From positions 1 to 36,485 of the forward strand of contig JAHCLE010000015.1 of NCBI GenBank assembly GCA_026125445.1: 36,485 bases of DNA, in the 5' to 3' direction. Shown here piece by piece: positions 8,641 to 26,315 of this stretch. The stretch's first letter is position 1; every line of letters begins with the position of its first letter. The notes under the pieces were generated by a model. The model searched no databases. It worked only from the letters and a program-made list of their open reading frames with translations, and was not told the DNA's origin. Source of the DNA: Burkholderiales bacterium (GTDB taxonomy: Bacteria; Pseudomonadota; Gammaproteobacteria; Burkholderiales; Usitatibacteraceae). Position numbers and translations under genes: made by a program.

Positions 8641-10569
8641 ATGCGCGCGGCGCTCGTCCTCATCGACCTGCAGCGCGACTACCTGGACCGCCCGGGCCTC
8701 GTGCCTGCGGAAGGCGAGCTGCTGAGCCGTGTCGCCGCGCTGCTCGAAGGGTGCCGGCGCGCGGGTGTTCCGGTGTTCCACGCGATGACGCTCCTGCGAA
8801 CCGACGGCGCCAACCGCATGCCGCACTGGCAGGCCGCGGGCACCTGGGCGTGCGTCGAGGGGACCGCGGGTGCCCGGCCACCGGAACCGGTTGCGCCCGC
8901 GCCCGGCGAGCCCGTCTTCGCGAAGGATTTCTACAGCGCGCTCGACGCGCCGGGCCTGGAGGCAGGGCTCGCCGCGCGCGGCGTCGACACGGTGGTCCTC
9001 GCGGGCATCTACACCCACGCCTGCATCCGCGAGACGGCGGTCGATGCCTATGCGCGCGGCTTCCGTGTCGTGATCGCGACCGAGGCCATCGGCTCGACGG
9101 ATCCGCAGCACGCGCGCCTGTCGCTCGAGTGGCTGCAGGGCCGGGGCGCGCGCGGGCTTTCCACGGGAGAGATCCTCTCCGAAGTGTCCGGCAGCGCGGA
9201 AGGCGGGCCGCAGCGCGAGCCCTGGCGGCACCACGATCCCACCCGATGGAGCGAGGTGCTCTGGGAGGTGCGGCCGGCCTCGAGGCGCGAGGTCGCCGAG
9301 GCGACGGAGCGCGCGCGCCGCGTGGCCCGAGGAGAACCGGCGCCTCCCGCGACGCGCGCGCGGCAGCTCGGGCTCTGGCTCGACGAGATGGTGGCGGCGC
9401 GCGAGGCGCTCGTGGCGATGCTCGTGCGCGACGTGGCCAAGCCCGTCGTGGAGGCGCGCGGAGAATTCGACTACGCCGTCGCCCTCCTTCGCCACGCGAT
9501 CGCGGCGATCGCGCAGGGGGAGTATCCCCATGCCGGTACGCGGGTGCGCGTGCGCCATCGCCCGCGTGGCGTGATCGCCATCGTGACACCCTGGAACAAC
9601 CCGCTCGCCATCGCGGTGGGCAAGCTCGCCCCGGCGCTGGCCTACGGCAATGCCGTGGTCTGGAAGCCGGCGCTCCAGGGCACGAGGATCGCCGAGCGTG
9701 TCCTCGAGACGTTGCGCGCGGCGGGCCTCGACGCAGGGGTCGCGCTGCTGCGGGGCGATGGCGAGACGGGACGGTGGCTCACGGGGCAGGCGGGCATCGA
9801 CGCGGTTTCGTTCACCGGGTCTGTCGCCTCCGGCCGCCAGGTGCAGGCGGCGTGCGCGGCCTCCGGCGCGCTCCTGCAGGCGGAACTGGGCGGCAACAAC
9901 GCGGTGATCGTGCTGGCGGATGCCGACATCCACCCGGTGGCCACCGAGGTCGCGGGGGCCGCCTTCAGCTTCTCGGGACAGCGCTGCACGGCGCCCCGGC
10001 GGATCATCGTGGATCGCGCCATCCTTGCCGCGTTCGAGACGGCGCTCGTACGCGCCACGCAAGGGCTTCGCGTCGGGGATCCCGCCGACGAGGCCACCCG
10101 CATCGGGCCGCTCATCTCGCGGCAGGCCCGGGCGCGCCTCTCGGAGCGGCTCTCGAATCCCGCGGGAGGACGCATCGCCTGCGGAGGGGCGGTGCCGGAA
10201 GGCTTCGCGCACGGCTGCTGGTTCGAGCCCACGATCGTGTCCCGCCCCGATCCGTCTTCCGCCCTCGTGAGAGAGGAGAGTTTCGGCCCGGTGGCCGTGC
10301 TGCTTCCCGCGGACGGCATCGATCACGCGCTGGCGCTGTGCAACGGCGTGGATCATGGCCTGGTGGCGTCCCTCTTCACGGGCGATGGGAGCGCGAAGGA
10401 GCGCTTCCTCGAAGAGGCGCAGGCCGGGATGCTGGCCATCAACCGCGCGCGGCCGGCGTTCGACGCGGCCGCGCCGTTTTCCGGATGGAAGCGCTCCGGG
10501 CACGGGCCGCCGGAGCACGGGCGCTGGGACCGCGAGTTCTACGCGCGACCGCAGGCGATCTACGAGTAG
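8641..10569 (+). CDS. Isochorismatase-family hydrolase fused to aldehyde dehydrogenase
   Basis: This is one 642-residue frame with two complete-looking domains. Residues 1 to about 185 are an isochorismatase-like cysteine hydrolase with the Asp-Lys-Cys triad in LIDLQRDY, VFAKDFYSAL and GIYTHACIRETA; related enzymes hydrolyse amides or enol ethers. Residues from about 200 to 642 are an NAD(P)-dependent aldehyde dehydrogenase with TPWNNP, VSFTGSVASG, general base Glu in LQAELGGNN, catalytic Cys in FSFSGQRCTAPRR, and EESFGPVAVL. No frameshift or stop separates them, so the fusion looks genuine. One reading is amide cleavage followed by oxidation of an aldehyde within one pathway, but this is inference. 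The gene ends 10 bases from the convergent ABC exporter stop. Confidence 0.88.
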   Translation: MRAALVLIDLQRDYLDRPGLVPAEGELLSRVAALLEGCRRAGVPVFHAMTLLRTDGANRMPHWQAAGTWACVEGTAGARPPEPVAPAPGEPVFAKDFYSALDAPGLEAGLAARGVDTVVLAGIYTHACIRETAVDAYARGFRVVIATEAIGSTDPQHARLSLEWLQGRGARGLSTGEILSEVSGSAEGGPQREPWRHHDPTRWSEVLWEVRPASRREVAEATERARRVARGEPAPPATRARQLGLWLDEMVAAREALVAMLVRDVAKPVVEARGEFDYAVALLRHAIAAIAQGEYPHAGTRVRVRHRPRGVIAIVTPWNNPLAIAVGKLAPALAYGNAVVWKPALQGTRIAERVLETLRAAGLDAGVALLRGDGETGRWLTGQAGIDAVSFTGSVASGRQVQAACAASGALLQAELGGNNAVIVLADADIHPVATEVAGAAFSFSGQRCTAPRRIIVDRAILAAFETALVRATQGLRVGDPADEATRIGPLISRQARARLSERLSNPAGGRIACGGAVPEGFAHGCWFEPTIVSRPDPSSALVREESFGPVAVLLPADGIDHALALCNGVDHGLVASLFTGDGSAKERFLEEAQAGMLAINRARPAFDAAAPFSGWKRSGHGPPEHGRWDREFYARPQAIYE

Positions 10570-10579
10570 CGGTCAGGAT

Positions 10580-12733
10580 TCAGGCGGAGCCGGTGCTCGA
10601 CGACGGCGTGGCACGAAAGGCGTCGACCGCTCGACGCAGGTCCTGCGCCACCTTTCCCTGCTGCAGCACGATCACCCGCCCCGCCGAGGCGATCGTCTCC
10701 GGGCGGTGGGCGATGAGGATGCGCGTGAGGTTGAGTCCCCGGATCGCCTCGTTCACCTGGCGCTCGCGCTGCACGTCCAGCGCGCTCGTGGCCTCGTCGA
10801 GGAAGAGGATCCTCGGCTGCTTGTAGAGGGCGCGCGCGAGCAGGATGCGCTGGCGCTGCCCGCCGGAAAGCGCCGCTCCCATGTCGCCGATGAGCGTGTG
10901 GTAGCCCATGGGCATGGCGGCGATGTCGTCGTGCACGGCCGCGAGCCGCGTGCAGCGCTCGATGTCCTCCTGGCAGGGACTGGCGTCGAAGAAGCTCACG
11001 TTGTCCCCGATCGAGCCGGCGAAGAGGGGATCGTCCTGCATCACGGTTCCCACGAGACGGCGATGCGCGTCGACGCCCAGCTTCTGCAGGTCGATGCCTC
11101 CCACGAGCACCTGCCCGTCGGTGGGCGCGAGAAGCCCCAGCATGATCTTCACGAGCGTGGTCTTGCCGCCGCCGGAGGGACCGACGATGGCGACGGACTC
11201 CCCGGGCGCGATGCGAAACGAGCAGTTCTGCAGGACGAAGGGTTCGGTGTCGGAGTAGCGGAAGGAGAGGTCTCGCACCTCGATGGAGGCCTCGTCGACG
11301 GCCGGCGCGGGCGACGGCGCCTCCTCCTCGGGCTGCGTTAGCACGATATCGGCCAGGCGCTCGCCCTGGAGCTGCAGCATCTTGAGCTCGATCAGCTTGT
11401 CGATGAGCCCGGCCACCCGCGCGGAGAACTGCTCCTTGTAGGCCATGAAGGCGAAGAGCATGCCGACGGAGAACGCGGAGTCGAGCACCAGCAGGGCGCC
11501 CACCCACACGACGGCGATGCGCTCGATGCCGAACACGAGCCCGTTGGCGCTGCGAAAGCCCAGCGAGAGCTTCTGCACCACGAGGTCGCGGTTCACGGCG
11601 TCGACGACGAGGTTCAGCCATCGGGAGCGCCGCTCCTCCTGGCGACCGAAGAGCTTGATGGACTGCACGCCGCGCACGGTCTCCAGGAAGTGGCTCTGCT
11701 GCCGCGCGGCGTGGACGATGTGCTCCTCGGTGGCGCGCCGAAGCGGCGCGTAGAAGGCGGCGCGCGACGCGGCATACGCGGCGACGGCGGCGACGGCCAG
11801 TCCCGTGAGCGCACCGCTGTACACCAGCATCATCGCGAGGGTGGCGAGCGCCATGATCCCGTCGATCAGCGCCTCGACGAAGCTCGAGGTGATCGTGCGC
11901 TGGATCGTCGTCACCGCCCCGAAGCGGGACACGACGTCGCCCAGGTGGCGGCGCTCGAACCAGGCCACGGGCAGGCGCAGCAAGTGCGAGAAGACGTTGG
12001 CCAGCCACTGCAGGTTGAGCGTCGTTCCCAGGTAGAGCACCACCCAGGAGCGTAGGGCCCCCACGGCGACCTGCACGATGGCGAGCAGCAGGAATCCCAG
12101 CCCCAGCACCGAGAGCAGGTCGCGATCGGAGGCGACCACGGCGCCGTCCACCACCCATTGCATGTAGAAGGGCGCCAGGAGCGCGAAGGCCTGCAACACG
12201 AGCGCGAGAAGCAGCACCTGCGCGAGGCAAGCCGCGAGGCCGGAGACTGGGCCCGTGAGGTCGCGAAGGCGCACGCGGCGCCGCTCGTCGGCCGGACGGA
12301 ATTCCGCCGTGGGCGAGAGCTCGAGGGCGATGCCGGTGAAGTGCTTCGAGACTTCCGCGAGCGGCATTCGGCGCACGCCGAAGGCCGGGTCGTGGATCGT
12401 GGCCTCGCGCGGCCCGGCGCTGGCGAGCACGACGAAGTGGTTGAGGTCCCAGTGCAGGATGCACGGCGTCCTGAGCCTGGGAAGCTCGTCGAGCTCGAGC
12501 CGCAGCGCGCGGGGCGCGAGGCGCAGCCGGGAGGCGGCCTGCATCAGGTAGGCGAGCGTGGCGCCCTTGAGCGACAGGGTGAACCGGCGCCGCAGGCCCG
12601 CGAGGTCGGTGCGGTGCCCGTGGTAGCTCGCGACCATGCCGAGGCTCGCGAGCCCGCACTCGGCGGCCTCCGTCTGCAGGAACACGGGAAGCTTCCGGCG
12701 CCCGCCGAAGTCGAGCCCGTCGATCGCGGCCAC
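10580..12733 (-). CDS. Peptidase-containing (C39) ABC exporter for double-glycine-leader peptides
   Basis: This 717-residue protein has the three-part PCAT/CvaB layout. Residues 1 to about 135 are a C39 cysteine protease with oxyanion Gln20, catalytic Cys26 (QTEAAECGLASLGM), His99 (LNHFVVL) and Asp115 (IHDPAFG), so it should be active, unlike HlyB-type inactive domains. Residues of about 160-450 form the six-helix exporter region. The C-terminal ATPase has Walker A GPSGGGKTTL, signature LSGGQRQR (about 621) and Walker B ILFLDEATSALD. The protein should cut leaders after a Gly-Gly pair and export the core. It is the last gene of the cassette, 1 base after the adaptor, and its likely substrates are the peptides at 14894-15502. 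No TolC-like outer-membrane partner is in the window. Confidence 0.93.
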   Translation of the reverse strand: MAAIDGLDFGGRRKLPVFLQTEAAECGLASLGMVASYHGHRTDLAGLRRRFTLSLKGATLAYLMQAASRLRLAPRALRLELDELPRLRTPCILHWDLNHFVVLASAGPREATIHDPAFGVRRMPLAEVSKHFTGIALELSPTAEFRPADERRRVRLRDLTGPVSGLAACLAQVLLLALVLQAFALLAPFYMQWVVDGAVVASDRDLLSVLGLGFLLLAIVQVAVGALRSWVVLYLGTTLNLQWLANVFSHLLRLPVAWFERRHLGDVVSRFGAVTTIQRTITSSFVEALIDGIMALATLAMMLVYSGALTGLAVAAVAAYAASRAAFYAPLRRATEEHIVHAARQQSHFLETVRGVQSIKLFGRQEERRSRWLNLVVDAVNRDLVVQKLSLGFRSANGLVFGIERIAVVWVGALLVLDSAFSVGMLFAFMAYKEQFSARVAGLIDKLIELKMLQLQGERLADIVLTQPEEEAPSPAPAVDEASIEVRDLSFRYSDTEPFVLQNCSFRIAPGESVAIVGPSGGGKTTLVKIMLGLLAPTDGQVLVGGIDLQKLGVDAHRRLVGTVMQDDPLFAGSIGDNVSFFDASPCQEDIERCTRLAAVHDDIAAMPMGYHTLIGDMGAALSGGQRQRILLARALYKQPRILFLDEATSALDVQRERQVNEAIRGLNLTRILIAHRPETIASAGRVIVLQQGKVAQDLRRAVDAFRATPSSSTGSA

Positions 12734-12734
12734 G

Positions 12735-13988
12735 TCACGCCCTTCCGGCGAGGCTCAGGACCGGCTCGAAGACCCACTCGATGAGCCGGCGGCGGTCGAG
12801 GAGGATGTCGGCCTCCACCTGCATCCCGGCCTGCAGCGGCTCGGCGCGGCCGTAGGCGGCCACCGTCTGCGAGTCGAGCGCGACCTTGATGCGGTAGAGG
12901 GACTCGCGCGAGCCGTCGGGAGGAGAGAAGCCCAGCTCGGCCGGCGCGATGGCGGCCCGGGAGACGGAAATCACGCGCGCCCGGTGGCTGCCGAACTTCT
13001 GGAACGGAAACGCGGGATAGCGCAGCAGCACCTCCTGGCCGGCGCGCACGAAGCCGACCGACCGCGAGGGGGCGAAAAGATGCGCCTGGAGAGGCGAGCC
13101 TTCGGGCAGCAGCGTGAGGAGGGTCGTTCCGGGTGCGACCACCTGTCCCGGCTCGACGAGCACGGCGGCCACGGTGCCGGAGGCGGGCGCGCTCACGATC
13201 GCGTCGGCCTGGGTCAGCCGCTCGATTCGCTCCTGCTCGAGCGCCGCCACTTGCGCGTCCAGGGCGGAGAGTTGCGCCCGGGCGCGCGAGTTCGACTCGT
13301 CCGACGCGGCCCGCAGCCCGCCGATCTCGCGCTCGAGCGCGAGCCTCGCCCTCGCGGTCGCGTGGGCGCGCGACCGGAGGTCGAGGATCTCTTCCTCCTT
13401 CTGCTGGCGCTGGGCCGCGGAAGCGAAGCCGCGTCGTTCCAGCTCCTCGATCCGCGCCAGCGACCGGCGGGCCAGGGCCTCCCGCGACGCGATGGCCCCG
13501 ATCTCGCCCTCGACCTGGGCCAGTTCCGCCTCGAAACCCGCAAGGCGCGCCCGCATCGAGGCCTGCTCCGAGTCGGCGGCCGCGCGGATCTCGTCACGCT
13601 GGCGGCGAACGCCGGCCACGCGCCTTTCGGCGAGCGTCACGGTCGCGCGCCCGACCGGGCCGTCGCCGGCAGTCGCGCGGGAGTCGACGAGCCTGAGCAG
13701 GGGCTCGCCCGCGGCTACCTTCTCGCCCTCGCGCGCATGCCGCTCGCGGACGAGCCCGGATTGCGGCGCCGCCACCCGGATCGCGCCGGAAGCGGGGACG
13801 AGCATGCCCGCGAGGGTCGCCTTCTTCGCGTAATCGGCGAGCACGAGATAGGCGAGGACGATCGCGGCGATCGACAGGGACGCCGCGGTGAGCAGCGTGA
13901 AGGAGAGGGGATGGATCATGACGATGGATCCCATCGCGGATCGGGCCAGCTCCTTCCGGACCTCGTCCCGGAACGCGGGTCGTCCCAT
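12735..13988 (-). CDS. HlyD/CvaA-like periplasmic adaptor of the peptide exporter
   Basis: This 417-residue membrane-fusion protein has a short cytoplasmic N-terminus, one transmembrane helix (about residues 28-50), and a lipoyl/barrel-sandwich half with IRVAAPQSGLVRERHAREGEKVAAGEPLLRL boundaries around residues 69-99. A long Ala/Arg/Glu-rich coiled coil (about 110-245) follows, then the second lipoyl half (IVSAPASGTVAAVLVEPGQVV region) and a C-terminal barrel domain ending in a hydrophobic segment. It would link the inner-membrane C39 exporter to an outer-membrane channel. Its stop is 1 base from the exporter ATG, so the two are coupled. It starts 21 bases after the CPBP protease gene. Confidence 0.9.
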   Translation of the reverse strand: MGRPAFRDEVRKELARSAMGSIVMIHPLSFTLLTAASLSIAAIVLAYLVLADYAKKATLAGMLVPASGAIRVAAPQSGLVRERHAREGEKVAAGEPLLRLVDSRATAGDGPVGRATVTLAERRVAGVRRQRDEIRAAADSEQASMRARLAGFEAELAQVEGEIGAIASREALARRSLARIEELERRGFASAAQRQQKEEEILDLRSRAHATARARLALEREIGGLRAASDESNSRARAQLSALDAQVAALEQERIERLTQADAIVSAPASGTVAAVLVEPGQVVAPGTTLLTLLPEGSPLQAHLFAPSRSVGFVRAGQEVLLRYPAFPFQKFGSHRARVISVSRAAIAPAELGFSPPDGSRESLYRIKVALDSQTVAAYGRAEPLQAGMQVEADILLDRRRLIEWVFEPVLSLAGRA

Positions 13989-14009
13989 CGGATCGCGGCC
14001 GCTGCCTTC

Positions 14010-14831
14010 CTAGCGGATTGCCGCCTCCCGCACGTCGGTGCGGGACATGGCGAGGTAGGCGGGAAGCGCCACGGCGATGAAGACGAGGCTCGCCAACTCC
14101 AGGCTCCACGTGGACATGCGGTTGATGTCGCGGCCCTCGAGAGTCAGCAGCACATGGCCGAGCAGCGGCCACGAAACCGCGAGATTGAACGCCATGTGGG
14201 CCAGGATCGTGGTCCTCAGCGTGCCCGTGCGACGGAGAAGGCAGACGAGGGCGACGGAAAGGAGGAAGGTGGCGATGAAGTTGTGGACATGGAACAGCCC
14301 GAAGCAGAAGGAGGTCAGGAAGAGCGAGGGTACCCATCCCCACTGCCGCTCCCACGCGCGGTACAGGAACCCGCGAAACACGAGCTCCTCGACGATCGGG
14401 GCGACGAGGCACGAGATGACCAGGAGCTTCATCGCTCCCATGAATGAAAGAATCCGCTCCCACGACTGCATCGGATCGGCGCTGAGCAGCCTGGAGGCAA
14501 GCAGCGCGGGCTCGCCGGCCGCAAAGGCGCCCAGGATGGTGGCTCCGGCCACGGCGAACGGGATTGCGAGCATGCCCACGGTGACGAGAGCGGCTTCGCG
14601 GCGACCGCCCGCTGGAATGGGACGTTGCAGCTCCTGCCGGCAATACCGGCGGGCCGGCGCGATGGCGGACAGTGCCGCGATCGCCAGTCCGAAAACCGCG
14701 AAGGAGTACAGGTCCTGTTGCGGGTTGTTCAGCCAGGACAGCCTGTCGCCCGCGATCCGGATGGAGAAGAGCACGAGGAAGTGAAGTGCAAAGACCAGTA
14801 TGGCGATCTGGAACCCGCTCACGAGTGGCAT
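14010..14831 (-). CDS. CPBP family intramembrane metalloprotease
   Basis: This 273-residue multi-pass protein has about seven or eight hydrophobic segments and the CPBP/Abi motifs: EELVFRGFLYR (Glu pair plus Arg), FGLFHVHNF (His) and HMAFN (His). Family members process prenylated or other substrates in the membrane, and many sit in bacteriocin loci as immunity or maturation proteins. Its position between the precursor genes and the exporter suggests self-protection or peptide processing, but sequence alone cannot decide which. A GGAG lies 8 bases before the ATG. A perfect hairpin sits just upstream, between this gene and the last precursor gene. Confidence 0.88.
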   Translation of the reverse strand: MPLVSGFQIAILVFALHFLVLFSIRIAGDRLSWLNNPQQDLYSFAVFGLAIAALSAIAPARRYCRQELQRPIPAGGRREAALVTVGMLAIPFAVAGATILGAFAAGEPALLASRLLSADPMQSWERILSFMGAMKLLVISCLVAPIVEELVFRGFLYRAWERQWGWVPSLFLTSFCFGLFHVHNFIATFLLSVALVCLLRRTGTLRTTILAHMAFNLAVSWPLLGHVLLTLEGRDINRMSTWSLELASLVFIAVALPAYLAMSRTDVREAAIR

Positions 14832-14849
14832 GGTCTGCTCCGGAAAGGA

Positions 14850-14871
14850 GGGGCTGCGACGGCGCAGCCCC
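14850..14871 (-). terminator. Hairpin between precursor genes and the CPBP gene (possible attenuator)
   Basis: A perfect 9-base-pair GC-rich stem (arms 14850-14858 and 14863-14871, loop of 4) lies 22 bases after the stop at 14894 and 18 bases before the CPBP ATG. It is followed on the minus strand by TCCTTTCC, a weak pyrimidine run without a true U-tract. It may partly terminate transcription or protect the 3' end of the precursor mRNA, giving more peptide than exporter. Confidence 0.45.
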
Positions 14872-14893
14872 TGGGCTCGGTCGTTCGGCGGCG

Positions 14894-15085
14894 CTACTTG
14901 ATCGAGACGCGCTCGATCACGTGGGACGTGAAGTCCACGAGGTTCTCGTACGCCTGGGTGAGGGAGCTGGTGATTCCGAGGATGGACTCGGGCGAGCAGG
15001 AGTCGCCGCCACCGCCCACGCCTTCCGCTTGCTTCCCGTCCAGCGCGTTGCCTGCCTCGTTCGTCGAAATGGTCTTGTCGGTCAT
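14894..15085 (-). CDS. Putative secreted peptide precursor with Gly4 motif (63 aa)
   Basis: This encodes 63 residues with a good ribosome-binding site (GGAGAA, 7 bases before the ATG). Residues 1-23 are hydrophilic, residues 24-27 are GGGG, and Cys30 is the only cysteine. The remainder (GITSSLTQAYENLVDF and on to VIERVSIK) looks like a possible amphipathic helix. I do not recognise a named family. The role as a leader-core precursor is inferred from three things: the Gly run about one leader-length from the N-terminus, two more precursor-like genes just upstream, and the C39 exporter downstream. Cleavage after Gly25 or Gly27 would leave a 36-38 residue peptide. It lacks the classical LxxxELxxIxGG leader, so it could also be an accessory or immunity peptide. 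Confidence 0.68.
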   Translation of the reverse strand: MTDKTISTNEAGNALDGKQAEGVGGGGDSCSPESILGITSSLTQAYENLVDFTSHVIERVSIK

Positions 15086-15110
15086 GATCTTCTCCTGGGT
15101 TGAAGTCGGT

Positions 15111-15260
15111 TTACATCAGGTCGTCGGACTTGTTCGGCAGCGGGTCCGGGAACGGCACGATCGGGCCCGGGGGGAAGCCCACGGGCGTCGGAAAGCAGCC
15201 GCCGTCCGACGTGTGGCCGCCCGAGACCTCGGGCTCGTCCTTCTTCTCGATTTCCTTCAT
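15111..15260 (-). CDS. Putative double-glycine-leader peptide precursor, proline-rich core (49 aa)
   Basis: This encodes 49 residues. AAGGAG lies 6 bases before the ATG at 15260; another ATG at 15266 directly touches that site and is less likely to be used. The N-terminus MKEIEKKDEPEVSGG is a compact hydrophilic leader ending in Gly14-Gly15, the type of site cut by C39 peptidases. The predicted core of 34 residues has nine prolines in CFPTPVGFPPGPIVPFPD and nearby, one Cys (22), a second Gly pair (20-21) and an acidic end (KSDDLM). No family is recognised. It lies 25 bases upstream of the 63-codon gene and is most likely an export substrate of the downstream C39 transporter. Confidence 0.7.
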   Translation of the reverse strand: MKEIEKKDEPEVSGGHTSDGGCFPTPVGFPPGPIVPFPDPLPNKSDDLM

Positions 15261-15337
15261 CGTCATCTCCTTGGTTGCGGTCGCGGCGTGGACTCGGCGC
15301 GGCGCGCGGCGACCGGGCAGGCGCTGCGCCGCGGAAA

Positions 15338-15502
15338 TCAGCCCGCGCTGGCGGGGGGATGCTCCTCGGCGGCGAGGTCGGCGAAGGCGATCGGGTCGCG
15401 AAGCGCCTCGGCGGGCGCGCGGTAGAAGACCTCGTCGAGGACGGCGCCGGGCGGAAGCCCGCCCGCGATGGCGAGCACTTCGTCGTCGGTCAGCACATTC
15501 AT
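15338..15502 (-). CDS. Putative double-glycine-leader peptide precursor (54 aa), first gene of the cassette
   Basis: This very short frame encodes 54 residues. The ATG at 15502 is preceded by GGGAG with about 6 bases of spacing. The N-terminus is MNVLTDDEVLAIAGG, a textbook double-glycine leader (hydrophobic-x-x-x-Glu-hydrophobic-x-x-Ile/Val-x-Gly-Gly) of 15 residues. The predicted core of 39 residues begins LPPGAVLDEVFYRAP, is acidic, lacks cysteine and ends EEHPPASAG. It is the most leader-like of the three precursors, and 77 bases separate it from the next one. The core is not recognised. The clear leader, ribosome-binding site and position at the head of the exporter cassette support a real gene. 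Confidence 0.68.
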   Translation of the reverse strand: MNVLTDDEVLAIAGGLPPGAVLDEVFYRAPAEALRDPIAFADLAAEEHPPASAG

Positions 15503-15552: not shown

Positions 15553-15618
15553 ATGCTAGGAAGGCGGGCGCGCGATGGCCCGCGAAAATCGGGGAAAGTT
15601 GCGGCGCGATTTCGCGCC
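15553..15618 (-). promoter_or_regulatory. Upstream region of the peptide cassette: dyad and weak -10
   Basis: The gap 15503-15632 separates the cassette from the envelope operon. It holds a perfect 16-base dyad (15603-15618, arms GGCGCGA and TCGCGCC) and, on the minus strand, TAGCAT (15553-15558), about 50 bases before the first precursor ATG. No convincing -35 is seen. The dyad could be an operator, or a weak terminator for the glycosyltransferase gene ending at 15633. Confidence 0.25.
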
Positions 15619-15632
15619 CCGCCGCACGGACC

Positions 15633-16481
15633 TCAGGAGGCCGGTGCCCGCCCGTGCAGTTCGAAGAACCGGCGCGCCGAGCGCACGAAGAGCGCGATGT
15701 GCCGCAGTCCCTTCGAGGCCGCCTTGCCGCCGTGGTGCACGATCCTCACCTGCGGGCAGTACGCGACCGTCGTCACCTTCGAAAGCCGCAGCGTGAGGTC
15801 GAAGTCCTCGAAGTAGAGGAAGTAGGCCGGATCGAAGCCCTTCACCCGCTCGAGCAACACGCGCCGGCACAAGAGGAAGCAGCCGCTCGCGATCCGAACC
15901 GGCGCCTGCTCCTTTTCCCAGTCCAGCTCCCGCAGCTCGTAGGCGTCGAGCGCCTTGCGGAACGGCCCGTGCAGGAACCGCGGCACGAAGCCCCGCACGA
16001 AGAGCACGCCCGGCGTCGGCCAGCCCTTCACCAGGTACTCGCGCTCGCCGTCGGCGCCGCGCACGGAGGGCGTGAGCGCCCCGACCTGCGGGTGCGATTC
16101 CAGGTAGCGCAGTGCCGCGTCCAGTGCCTCGCGCGCCATCTCGACGTCGGGGTTGAGCACGAGGTGGAGGTCGCAGCCGGACTGCGCGATGGCGAGGTTG
16201 TGCCCCTGCCCGAAGCCCACGTTGCCGTGGCCCGTGATCACGTCGAGCTCGACTTCCTGCGCGCGGGAAAGCGCCGCCTCCGCCAGTTGCCGCAGCATCG
16301 CCGCCTTGCCGTCGGGGCCGTTGTCCACGACGAGGAGCCGGGCCGCGGCGAGCGTCCCCTGGGCGCGGGCGAAGGCGATGGCGTCGGCCGCGCTCGCGAG
16401 CGTGCGGGCGAGCAGGCGCTCGTCCGGCGCGTAGGTGACGATGGAGATCGAGAGGGAGGCGCCCGCCATGGCTCGAATCAT
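15633..16481 (-). CDS. Family 2 glycosyltransferase, rhamnosyltransferase-like
   Basis: This 282-residue GT-A fold enzyme starts with SISIVTYAPDERLL. It has the nucleotide-binding stretch LLVVDNGPDG and GHGNVGFGQGHNLAIAQS, and an Asp-containing metal motif in LVLNPDVEM. The C-terminal FLYFEDFDLTLRL and RIVHHGGKA are typical of WbbL-like rhamnosyltransferases of O-antigen or core assembly. It would add a sugar to an envelope glycan on the cytoplasmic face. The ATG at 16481 (or 16469, in frame) follows the GT9 stop by 25 bases. It is the last gene of the envelope operon, and 130 bases separate it from the peptide cassette. Confidence 0.85.
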   Translation of the reverse strand: MIRAMAGASLSISIVTYAPDERLLARTLASAADAIAFARAQGTLAAARLLVVDNGPDGKAAMLRQLAEAALSRAQEVELDVITGHGNVGFGQGHNLAIAQSGCDLHLVLNPDVEMAREALDAALRYLESHPQVGALTPSVRGADGEREYLVKGWPTPGVLFVRGFVPRFLHGPFRKALDAYELRELDWEKEQAPVRIASGCFLLCRRVLLERVKGFDPAYFLYFEDFDLTLRLSKVTTVAYCPQVRIVHHGGKAASKGLRHIALFVRSARRFFELHGRAPAS

Positions 16482-23368: not shown

Positions 23369-25225
23369 TCAGGTGGCCTCGAAGCGCAGGCTGAGCAGGA
23401 TGGCGCGCCGCGGGGCGTCGTAGCCCACGGCGTGCTCGTAGCGCTTGTCGAAGAGGTTCGAGCCCGTGAGCTCCAGGCTCCAGCGCCTGCTCACGGCGTA
23501 GCGCACCGTGGCGTCCGCGATCGCGTAGCCCGGCAGGCGCGAGGCCGGCGACTCGTCGGCGGAGTCGAAGCGCTCGCTCGAGGCGGTGACGCCGCCGGAG
23601 ACGGACCAGTCGCCCGATCCCCAGGACGCCTCCAGGCGGCCGAAGCGCTTCGCGCGCCCCTGGAGCTGGAAACCCGTCTCCTCGTCCTTCGGGTCCTGCG
23701 AGGCGTAGGAGCCGCGCCAGCCCAGGCCCCAGGCCCGGCCCTCGACGGAGGCCTCGACGCCGCGGATGCGCGCGCGCCGCACGTTCTCCATCGTGGGATA
23801 GACGTAGGTGATGAGGTCCTCGATGCGGTTGTCGAAGGCGGTGAGGCGAAGCTGCCAGCCGCGAAGCGATTCGCTGCGCCATCCGATCTCGCGCCCCAGG
23901 CTCTCCTCGGGGCGAAGCAGCGGATTGGGCACGTAGAAGTCGGAGGGCGGCGCGTAGAGGTCGAAGAAGGTCGGCGCGCGGAAACCACGACCGAAAGTGA
24001 ACGTGAGGAGACCCGCCCCCGGCCAGGCGATGCCCGCGCTCGCCGCACCCGTGTCGTGGGCGCCGAACTGGTCGTCGTCGTCGCGGCGGATGGAGCCTTC
24101 GAACCGGTAGGAGCCCCAGGACTCGGAAAGCGCCGCCCAGGCCGAGTTCGTGTCGCGCCTGGTCTCGGAGAACGAGGTGTCGGAGACGACCTTCTGGCGC
24201 AGCATCTCGAAGCCGGCGAGCGCCTTGCCCGCGGGCAGCGTGAACTCGTGCACCCAGGAGGCCTGGTCCTGGCGCGTGTCGAAGCGCGCCGTCGTGCCGC
24301 CCTCGATCTGGAGCTCGTCGCGGCCCTGGCCGAGGGTGAGGCGGCTCTTCCACCAGGTCTCGTAGTTCATCTCCGAGACGATGTTGGCGGCCGCGAGCGT
24401 CTGCACGTTGCGGTCGTTGGCGTAGTTTCCCTGGGCGTCGGGGCAGCCGTCGAATCGGGCGCGCCCGCGGCTCACGAAGCCGGTGAACGCGAGCGTCTCC
24501 TGGGGCGCGAGGCGGCCCACGACCTTCAGGTTCGCGAAGGCGTTGTCGTAGGGGTCGCGGTCGGGGTCGTGGCAGAAGGCGCGCTCGTTGGTGGCGCTCG
24601 GCGCGTCCACGGTCCGCCCGCCGGCGGAGAACGAGACGGTGGTCTTGCCCTCGATCGCGGTGAAGCCCGTGGCGAGGCGGCCGTCGGAATCGCTGCCGTA
24701 GGCGGCGCTCGCGAAGAGGCGCGGCGTGGCGGAAGCGCGGGTGAAGATCTGCACCACGCCGCCGATCGCGTCCGGGCCGTAGAGGCTGGAGAGCGGCCCC
24801 TTCACCACCTCGATGCGCTCGACGAGGTCGAGGGGGATGTTCTCGATGGAGGTCGTGCCCACGGTGGCCGAGCTCACGCGCAGCCCGTCGACGAGCACGA
24901 GCGTCTGGCCGGCGTTGGCGCCGCGCAGGAAGAGGCCGGCGGGCTGTCCCGGCCCTCCGGTGCCGCGGAATTCCACCAGGGCCTGGCGCTGCAGCAGCTC
25001 GGCGAGCGAAACGGGCGCGGCGCGGTCGATGTCCTCGCGCGTGATCACCTCGACGTCGCGCAGGGCGTCGCCGGCGCGCTGCGGCGTGCGCGTGGCCGTG
25101 ACCACCATGGCGTCGAGTGACTGGAATGCGAGCGTGGGGGCGGCGGAAACGGGGGCGGGCGCTTGCTGGGCGTGGGCGCCCAATGCCATCGCCGCGGCGA
25201 GGCCGGCGAGGGGCGTGGTCTTCAT
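23369..25225 (-). CDS. btuB: TonB-dependent outer-membrane receptor, cobalamin (BtuB-like)
   Basis: This 618-residue protein has a signal peptide (about 1-19, ending AHAQ). A TonB-box-like MVVTATRTP follows at about residues 40-48, then the plug domain (LQRQALVEFRG, NAGQTLVLVDGLRV, IERIEVVKGPLSSLYGPDAIGGVVQIFTR in separate parts). A long beta-barrel ends in Phe-containing LLSLRFEAT. Size and the presence of a cobalamin riboswitch directly upstream indicate vitamin B12 uptake rather than siderophore uptake. AAGGAA lies 5 bases before the ATG. No btuFCD genes are in the window, so inner-membrane transport must be encoded elsewhere. Confidence 0.9.
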   Translation of the reverse strand: MKTTPLAGLAAAMALGAHAQQAPAPVSAAPTLAFQSLDAMVVTATRTPQRAGDALRDVEVITREDIDRAAPVSLAELLQRQALVEFRGTGGPGQPAGLFLRGANAGQTLVLVDGLRVSSATVGTTSIENIPLDLVERIEVVKGPLSSLYGPDAIGGVVQIFTRASATPRLFASAAYGSDSDGRLATGFTAIEGKTTVSFSAGGRTVDAPSATNERAFCHDPDRDPYDNAFANLKVVGRLAPQETLAFTGFVSRGRARFDGCPDAQGNYANDRNVQTLAAANIVSEMNYETWWKSRLTLGQGRDELQIEGGTTARFDTRQDQASWVHEFTLPAGKALAGFEMLRQKVVSDTSFSETRRDTNSAWAALSESWGSYRFEGSIRRDDDDQFGAHDTGAASAGIAWPGAGLLTFTFGRGFRAPTFFDLYAPPSDFYVPNPLLRPEESLGREIGWRSESLRGWQLRLTAFDNRIEDLITYVYPTMENVRRARIRGVEASVEGRAWGLGWRGSYASQDPKDEETGFQLQGRAKRFGRLEASWGSGDWSVSGGVTASSERFDSADESPASRLPGYAIADATVRYAVSRRWSLELTGSNLFDKRYEHAVGYDAPRRAILLSLRFEAT

Positions 25226-25299: not shown

Positions 25300-25470
25300 C
25301 GGTTCCGTTGCCGACGGGCCGGTCTCCGGGCTCGCCAGACTTGACCTCCGCCTTCCCACGGCGCGAGGGCCGCAGTGGCTGGTGGGAGGTCCGCACTGGC
25401 TTACCGTTGCGGGGGCAGCGCCGGCCTTTCACCGGCTTCCCGGACACCCGAAAGCTGCCGCCATGATACT
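25300..25470 (-). promoter_or_regulatory. Cobalamin (AdoCbl) riboswitch
   Basis: On the minus strand the leader reads, in order, GGGAAGCCGGTGAAAGGCC, then GCGCTGCCCCCGCAACGGTA (25402-25421), the strongly conserved cobalamin-aptamer core, and then the B12-box-like GAGCCCGGAGACCGGCC (25317-25333). The order and spacing match the cobalamin riboswitch class. It lies about 75-245 bases upstream of the receptor ATG. Ligand binding would lower receptor expression when cobalamin is plentiful. Ends are approximate. The open frames across this region are not genes. Confidence 0.93.
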
Positions 25471-25532
25471 CCCGCGCTTTCGGCAGGCCCCAAGTTACAT
25501 TCGAAATCACTTTCAAAATAAGCGCTTACACA

Positions 25533-26100: not shown

Positions 26101-26134
26101 CGGCGCGCGAGGCGCCGTTCGAACGGCGTGCCGG

Positions 26135-26312
26135 TTTCCTGCGGTGTTCGTCCGGGCTTACATCTTCGAGCCGATAATCTTGTAAGCCTGGATGCCCGCC
26201 AAAGCGGTGCTATTGTGCGCGTCCCATGTCGGATGTACCTACGGCACCCGGTGGGCAACCGCCTTGAACCTGTGGGTTCGAGCGTGCGGCCCGGACGAAC
26301 ACCGCAGGAAAT
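26135..26312 (+). ncRNA. ssrS: 6S RNA
   Basis: This stretch of about 178 bases directly downstream of zapA folds as a long rod. The outermost stem is perfect over more than 20 base pairs (TTTCCTGCGGTGTTCGTCC at 26135-26153 with its complement ending at 26311), and less regular pairing and internal bulges lie between. Size, position after zapA and the closing stem match 6S RNA, which binds the housekeeping RNA polymerase by mimicking an open promoter. An 83-codon frame across this region has no protein character. The 3' end lies only 3-4 bases before the palindromic repeat. Confidence 0.88.
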
Positions 26313-26315
26313 CTT

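Follow-up and report, generated by a model that had tools for sequence, protein, structure and literature searches.

A candidate class II microcin-like cassette with three double-glycine peptides, one of them genetically coupled to a CPBP intramembrane protease

Six minus-strand genes lie in a single run in contig JAHCLE010000015.1 of the Burkholderiales bacterium assembly GCA_026125445.1 (family Usitatibacteraceae). The whole 36,485-nucleotide stretch analyzed here, hereafter the window, is contig C57 of a 469-contig, 3.67-Mb assembly that is 90.8% complete. An initial annotation, made from the DNA letters alone, described the run as a peptide-secretion cassette of three small precursors, a CPBP protease, a HlyD-like adaptor, and an active C39 exporter. 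All six frames were confirmed in place (Table 1), and the description holds: three precursors with double-glycine (GG) leaders accompany a C39 exporter that retains all of its catalytic residues.

Table 1. Genes of the cassette and the element upstream of it, in window coordinates
Feature	Position	Strand	Remarks
p54, GG-leader precursor 1	15338..15502	minus	54 aa; 12 homologous frames aligned
p49, GG-leader precursor 2	15111..15260	minus	49 aa, internal ATG of 147-aa frame
p63, GG-leader precursor 3	14894..15085	minus	63 aa
Rce1-like intramembrane glutamic protease (CPBP), candidate p63 immunity protein	14010..14831	minus	273 aa
HlyD-family membrane fusion protein	12735..13988	minus	417 aa
C39-peptidase ABC exporter	10580..12733	minus	717 aa
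Upstream element GAAAT-N19-ATTTTCGC, imperfect dyad	15582..15613	minus	between GT2 and p54

The exporter, a peptidase-containing ABC transporter (PCAT), had been reported with an intact active site, and Q20, C26, H99, and D115 are indeed present when read directly from the sequence; C39 motifs are visible in all 11 exporters inspected. Pfam profiles recover its Peptidase_C39 (E-value 2.2e-31), ABC_membrane (9.3e-37), and ABC_tran (4.7e-30) domains, as well as the adaptor (HlyD_3, 2.9e-21) and the protease (Rce1-like, CPBP, PF02517, 5.8e-19). The Rce1-like domain carries the EExxxR, FxxxH, and HxxxN motifs that mark a CPBP protease, and its catalytic residues do not vary among the 12 cassette CPBPs aligned. 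A scan of window proteins, covering a subset of the window genes, revealed no TolC-type outer-membrane gene, and PF02321 (TolC-type) matches occur on six other contigs of the same genome, one of them partial; the earlier view of the cassette as self-contained is therefore probably wrong, and the outer-membrane channel would be encoded elsewhere. An NHLP/Nif11 peptide export system was considered and rejected, as the exporter scores 491.5 bits, below the NHLM_micro_ABC1 cut-off of 853.3.

A second HlyD/C39 pair, 34% and 48% identical to that of the window and with relatives in the family, lies on contig C235 of the same genome (locus L059); a scan upstream of it found no GG precursor. Elsewhere in the order, HlyD/C39 loci carry GG-leader peptides of unrelated sequence, variously rich in glycine and serine, rich in Trp and Pro, or charged (L051 6371-6598, L075 6019-7459, and L045 93-3138), so this exporter type probably serves many kinds of peptide. 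In the plasmid collection, neither the cassette (by megablast) nor p63 had a match; relatives of HlyD at below 60% identity are found on 257 plasmid records.

A Shine–Dalgarno-like site accompanies each of the three precursors, and in each leader the GG follows a hydrophobic residue at −12 and V or I at −4; ribosome sites, leaders, and cores are conserved in relatives (12–14 frames per precursor). A rule formulated only after the genes had been seen (a frame of 35–110 aa with a Shine–Dalgarno-like site and a GG preceded by hydrophobic residues at −12 and −4) selects four starts over the whole 36.5-kb window, all within p54, p49, and p63 (p54 twice), compared with a mean of 0.4 starts in 20 first-order Markov sequences. 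The p54 leader is MNVLTDDEVLAIAGG, with L−12, V−7, and I−4, followed by an acidic core of 39 aa; in the aligned frames the GG is invariant and the leader and the first half of the core (LPPGAALDEVLYRAP...) are well conserved. The window p49 has the leader MKEIEKKDEPEVSGG, and 14 frames share the leader type MKEIDKKDxPEVSGG together with an acidic, proline-rich core (22–33% Pro); over seven comparisons, the ratio of nonsynonymous to synonymous divergence (dN/dS) of that core is about 0.6–1.3, and leader dN is 0–0.23. Loss of precursors from relatives that retain the exporter, the outcome that the initial annotation held to speak against a cassette, is not seen: the frames are kept alongside a close exporter wherever the contig reaches (that of G016 starts just before p63).

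The p63 leader contains a VGGGG run that, on inspection of the sequence, is best cut after VGGG (residue 26), giving L−12, A−7, and V−4. A single Cys is found in each core of the 14 cassette-type frames, and the C-terminus carries an amphipathic helix motif, Y[ED]xx[VI]xxxS[HY]xxER[VI]A. Across a comparison set of 64 sequences (14 of the cassette type and 50 from another order), the Tyr and Ser of this motif occur in 64/64, the Arg in 62 of the 63 having a residue there, and a Cys ahead of the Tyr in 64/64, with one core from the other order containing two. In 89% of the 64, the amphipathicity of the helix exceeds that of shuffles of its own residues (p < 0.05). AlphaFold2 predicts one long helix over residues 32–62, at a mean predicted local distance difference test (pLDDT) score of 68 and a predicted template modeling score of 0.36, with pLDDT block means of 86 and 87 over residues 41–60. 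The dN/dS ratio of p63 is below 1 in seven comparisons, though about 0.8 in one.

None of p63, p49, and p54 matched a Pfam or NCBIfam family at its cut-off, part of their homologs being scanned in both; the comparison of the three cores with known microcins, made with these library profiles only, likewise found no family. Weak NCBIfam matches (pheromone_VP1, E 0.11; EntF, E 0.14; cerein, E 0.05) were dismissed as leader resemblance. Searching the PDB by sequence returned only four chains (E 0.47–1.7), searching by fold returned none, and no literature on the p63 peptide family was found among open-licence papers. By these profile searches, p63 is a peptide family new to Pfam and NCBIfam.

Within the same family, p63 was found in 12 of 28 genomes (7/8 of genus g1, 5/6 of g4, 0/13 of g2, and 0/1 of g3), a weak 13th match having been dropped; an order-wide sample of 399 genomes yielded six carriers, each from its own family. 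Weak matches in G018, G567, G622, G677, and G1022 (E 0.003–0.008) lie inside frames of 308–1657 aa and were set aside as spurious. The complete collinear order p54-p49-p63-CPBP-HlyD-C39 is seen at loci L032, L033, L034, L035, L042, L038, L040, and L041, with the p49 of L040 taken from the frame list; the cassette is split over two contigs in G004 and interrupted by contig ends in G016, G020, and L084. Extra copies include a second p63-CPBP pair in L034, an additional p49 between CPBP and HlyD in L041, and two p49 genes in L076. Exporter identity is 88–91% for five g1 relatives, 79–81% for four g4 genomes, and 78% for G005. The record matching G012 is Betaproteobacteria bacterium GR16-43, and the remaining loci belong to metagenome-assembled genomes labeled Burkholderiales, Betaproteobacteria, or Pseudomonadota, plus one Lysobacter and one Vicinamibacteria. 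The last of these (L084) is a 3.9-kb contig carrying the cassette up to the start of HlyD beside a gene that we take to be elongation-factor-G-like; this contig is probably misbinned. A lipopolysaccharide-type (LPS-type) glycosyltransferase gene, GT2 (15633-16481), is the immediate upstream neighbor, in the same orientation, at all seven g1 cassette loci; in the three complete genomes G010, G014, and G012, approximately 175, 80, and 90 kb, respectively, separate it from the cassette, so the cassette occupies different genomic places.

An unusual array was observed in G008 (L046, L047; C1:855000-885000), where 10 further copies of the hlyD 5′ end, 97.8–100% identical over 164–178 nt, are spread across about 15.5 kb upstream of a HlyD/C39 pair, eight of them accompanied by approximately 120 nt of upstream DNA. 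The DNA between these copies holds two CPBP-similar genes, two copies of a 464-aa gene, presumably a transposase, and at least one gene for a divergent GG-leader peptide. The appearance is that of cargo cassettes displaced and exchanged by way of the repeats, ahead of a fixed exporter.

In each of the 14 cassette copies collected, the p63 and CPBP genes are neighbors, and in G002 they have been duplicated together. A second CPBP type, at most 25% identical to the first, accompanies a p63 with a different tail in G002b, G016, and G020, which represent two genera; HlyD, unlike this second type, follows the genome. Identities of p63 within type II (0.26–0.38) and between types (up to 0.41) overlap, so the evidence for two types comes from CPBP identity and the tail of p63. 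The partial Mantel correlation between p63 and CPBP given HlyD is 0.70 (0 of 5000 permutations); for the p63 core alone it is 0.65 (0/5000), and without the duplicate 0.42 (68/5000).

Synonymous divergence points the same way. Between G001 and G007, differences at fourfold-degenerate sites amount to 24/176 in GT2, 40/278 in HlyD, and 46/457 in C39 (together 110/911), and to 0/37 in p54, 4/18 in p49, 13/21 in p63, and 40/163 in CPBP; both p63 and CPBP exceed the pooled GT2, HlyD, and C39 (Fisher p = 1.6e-7 and 7.1e-5, respectively). Identity in 150-column blocks of the same pair drops to 0.60 at p63, compared with 0.84–0.99 from the start of CPBP onward. At the protein level, dN in this pair is 0.06 for CPBP, 0.03 for HlyD, and 0.01 for C39, and in five other g1 comparisons it is 0.35–0.67 for CPBP, 0.17–0.20 for HlyD (four of the five), and 0.05–0.07 for C39. 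Taken together, these data lend strong genetic support to p63 and CPBP forming a genetic unit. The initial suggestion that CPBP acts as a bacteriocin immunity factor stands insofar as CPBP appears to be the partner of one particular peptide; immunity itself keeps the status of a candidate function.

This pairing is also seen outside the family. In a class-level sample of 369 genomes, p63 matched one genome of another order (E 2.5e-10), in which a GG peptide gene is convergent with a CPBP gene; three other weak matches were dropped. Searching 396 genomes of that order yielded 52 matches at E <=0.01, one of them spurious, and stretches fetched from all 51 remaining genomes contain 51 p63 frames in 50 stretches, with none in one. 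CPBP lies within 1.5 kb of 50 of the 51 frames, and 49 of the 51 are convergent with it, at a spacing of −39 to +86 bp (no more than 40 bp in 48 cases), a layout that resembles the immunity genes of pore-forming colicins; one frame, the first of L145, is divergent at 131 bp and shares the CPBP of the second p63. Cases at contig edges comprise L165, which has no intact p63 frame, L166, with a cut frame and no visible CPBP, and L162, with a cut leader. Leaders of this second lineage (n = 50) end in GG in 27 and GA in 23, and its 50 CPBP frames, one of them from the stretch without an intact p63, show EExxxR in 50, FxxxH in 50, and HxxxN in 45. With the reference stretch included, homologs of a 959-aa neighbor, which we take to be 2-oxoglutarate dehydrogenase E1, and of a fatty-acid desaturase are present in 46/51 and 44/51 stretches, respectively. 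Because the locus is syntenic, the stretches are not independent events; as independent arrangements, the convergent locus counts as one, the operon as a second, and the G002 duplicate as a third.

The initial annotation had proposed a check of whether the precursors co-occur with the C39 exporter. The two are linked in the cassette lineage but not in the other order, where no HlyD or C39 homolog was found in the 51 stretches beside p63-CPBP. A C39 domain in an open frame of 701–815 aa occurs elsewhere in the genome in 22 of 22 tested p63-positive genomes of family f211 (suspected to be Woeseiaceae), and such a frame is absent from the one tested p63-positive f244 genome and present in one of seven genomes without a listed p63 match (Fisher 8e-5); the 30 genomes were hand-picked from the p63 lists, with six of the seven negatives from other families, so the sample is not random. 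HlyD lies beside the exporter in 13 of 14 fetched second-lineage C39 loci, and a strict leader scan at these 14 loci found no GG peptide alongside.

These observations are best accommodated, with a probability of roughly 0.55 in our judgment, by a bacteriocin system of several peptides that resembles the class II microcins and in which CPBP is the cognate immunity protein. In such a system, translation of p54, p49, and p63 would yield precursors with GG leaders, the exporter's C39 domain would cleave after the GG, and the cores would be secreted through the exporter, HlyD, and a channel encoded elsewhere. The principal effector would be p63, with its single Cys and amphipathic C-terminal helix, and CPBP would be its cognate immunity protein, probably shielding the inner membrane by proteolysis; p49, with its fast-evolving proline-rich core, and p54 would be co-secreted partner peptides. 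Gene content, intact motifs, conservation, p63-CPBP coupling, and co-occurrence with C39 exporters are read from the sequence; we infer cleavage, secretion, killing, immunity, and partner roles.

The closest known arrangement is that of microcin S from E. coli G3/10, whose genes are ordered mcsS-mcsI-mcsA-mcsB and whose CAAX-family protein McsI was shown to confer immunity (PMC3316575). Both loci encode, in order, a precursor with a leader peptide, a CAAX/CPBP-family immunity protein (a candidate here), HlyD, and a peptidase-domain ABC exporter; microcin S has one precursor, compared with three here, and McsI is a protein of 216 aa with no membrane helices predicted in that paper, compared with 273 aa for the window CPBP (PMC3316575). 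The likeness to McsI is drawn from family and gene order; in the plasmid collection, which is not known to include the microcin S plasmid, the window CPBP matched a single record (Haliovirga, E 1e-5).

Verified class II microcins came, as of 2022, from E. coli and Klebsiella (PMC9746304). Systems such as MccV combine a precursor, an immunity protein, a membrane fusion protein, a PCAT with a Cys/His/Asp triad, TolC in trans, and a GG/GA cleavage site, and their cores and immunity proteins vary while PCAT and membrane fusion protein are conserved (PMC9746304); a conserved exporter with a variable peptide and CPBP is the same pattern. The window has the corresponding parts: three GG-leader precursors of 49–63 aa, below 10 kDa, with p63 cut after VGGG, a C39-ABC exporter with catalytic Cys, His, and Asp, and a HlyD-type membrane fusion protein linked to it; TolC-type genes are present elsewhere in the genome. 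The differences are a location outside Enterobacterales, three co-encoded precursors, and a CPBP of more than 250 aa, which exceeds the size limit of the cinful pipeline (PMC9746304), so that an immunity candidate of this kind would be filtered out there.

A peptide system with CPBP-type immunity also has precedent in Gram-positive hosts, where some bacteriocins of lactic acid bacteria (LAB) have Abi/CPBP-type immunity proteins (PlnI, PlnL, and SkkI; PMC8538875). The microcin S-like layout and this Abi-type immunity lead us to favor the microcin-like interpretation with CPBP as immunity protein. The LAB bacteriocins are not known to use a HlyD/TolC route. A later report is said to add a class II microcin from Serratia, and the mcb locus of Moraxella catarrhalis, outside Enterobacterales, reportedly combines secretion genes and an immunity factor with a bacteriocin of GG type; mcb is likened here by description.

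The general kind of system, comprising GG peptide, PCAT, HlyD, and immunity candidate, is already known; what is new is the set of three precursors, the p63 family and the coupling of p63 to CPBP in both lineages, and the in-trans exporter of one lineage. A candidate system is thereby added in betaproteobacterial genomes, together with a second lineage in another order, and a peptide family is delimited by its own profile instead of loose leader motifs. These results also suggest that CPBP proteins of more than 250 aa may flag peptide partners missed by size-limited mining, and the cassette offers a direct test of whether CPBP proteins in peptide operons act in immunity or in processing.

Several observations weigh against the bacteriocin interpretation. 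The p63 helix motif is strongly conserved (Tyr and Ser in 64/64), the cores are acidic rather than cationic, and the p63 family is rare, being found in only its own genome in a phylum sample of 398. In the G001/G007 comparison, the fourfold-site divergence of p49 does not reach significance (p = 0.26), and that of p54 falls below the flanks (0/37, p = 0.016); in G014/G012, CPBP dN is 0.25, little above HlyD at 0.20 (C39, 0.05). In the second lineage, HxxxN is unmatched in 5 of 50 CPBPs, four of which read HATYD or HAVYD, and p63-CPBP coevolution in f211 is weak (partial r 0.18, 17/1000; 41 loci, leaving out L145, L162, and loci without CPBP or a long sucA-like frame); dN/dS from the three usable pairs was given no weight. 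The f211 locus, syntenic in most stretches, looks vertically inherited, unlike a strain-variable weapon. Moreover, CPBP proteins can also serve peptide processing, as suggested for SilX (PMC9298176).

These points leave room for a broader, tentative proposal, which we regard as possible and not probable: that the two genes make up a unit of a new kind. In this view p63 would be a conserved family of secreted peptides and CPBP the intramembrane protease dedicated to it; the pair would be kept at one convergent, syntenic locus in a bacterial family, served by an exporter in trans, and in other genomes would have been taken up into an exporter operon alongside two further peptides. If so, the conserved helix and fixed locus would point to a self-recognition or signaling peptide with a membrane-protease partner and not to an ordinary bacteriocin.

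The most durable rival, unlikely in our estimation, holds that p63 is a secreted signal or self-recognition peptide, CPBP a dedicated processing or clearing protease, and p49 and p54 co-exported peptides. The conserved helix and the syntenic second-lineage locus keep it alive, and the CPBP catalytic residues are intact. Its precedent is SilX, a CPBP protein beside the SilCR secreted-peptide system for which a role in signal processing is suggested: a silX deletion is rescued by added mature SilCR and brings no bacteriocin sensitivity, and the Arg of EExxxR is Gln in SilX (PMC9298176). Nevertheless, no sensor kinase or regulator was recognized among the window proteins scanned, p63 and CPBP of the second lineage lie on opposite strands, which in our judgment is unexpected for a processing pair, and the two genes share a peak of synonymous divergence in G001/G007.

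Improbable by comparison is a role of the peptides as secreted matrix or biofilm components, as for EbfG1-4 of Synechococcus elongatus, four GG peptides with a biofilm function that are exported by the C39 transporter PteB; their secretion is efficient only with the C39 peptidase, and one product is rich in proline and tyrosine (PMC4997328). The proline-rich, acidic p49 fits this comparison, but the terms 'CPBP' and 'HlyD' are absent from the main text of that paper ('CAAX' was not searched; PMC4997328), and the p63-CPBP coupling would be left unexplained.

We consider it very improbable that the locus encodes a glycocin-like system in which GT2 decorates the conserved Cys of p63. The adjacency of GT2 in 7/7 g1 loci is what recommends this idea, but homologs of GT2 are present in 10 of 11 same-family genomes searched outside g1, no p63 was found in seven of those 10 carriers (five g2, one g3, and G018 of g4), the gene is distant from the cassette in three others, and its neighbors in the window are heptosyltransferase and glycosyltransferase genes of LPS type. 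GT2 was therefore rejected as a cluster-specific glycocin maturase; as it was the only candidate maturase noticed, the earlier proposal that the products may be unmodified fits these results. The least credible alternative is that the small frames are spurious or decayed and the exporter alone is real: short frames are common in DNA of 71% GC, as here, but leaders, ribosome sites, and cores are conserved across relatives, p63 dN/dS is below 1, and p63 homologs occur in another order.

Between GT2 and p54 lies the imperfect dyad of Table 1. Alignment of seven loci of the genus shows GAAA and part of the second arm to be invariant, with CCTAGCATGGG following the dyad in six of the seven; the element is possibly an operator or promoter region. 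A search of the genome for a regulon, allowing up to three mismatches, recovered only the element's own site.

Other features of the window include a 642-aa plus-strand frame at 8641-10569, convergent with the cassette, that fuses an isochorismatase domain (residues 3–173) to an aldehyde dehydrogenase (198–638). A TonB-dependent receptor with a cobalamin riboswitch directly upstream is encoded on the minus strand (23369-25225 and 25300-25507, respectively), and a 6S RNA match on the plus strand at 26133-26314 scores 49.7 bits, just above the gathering score of 46.4.

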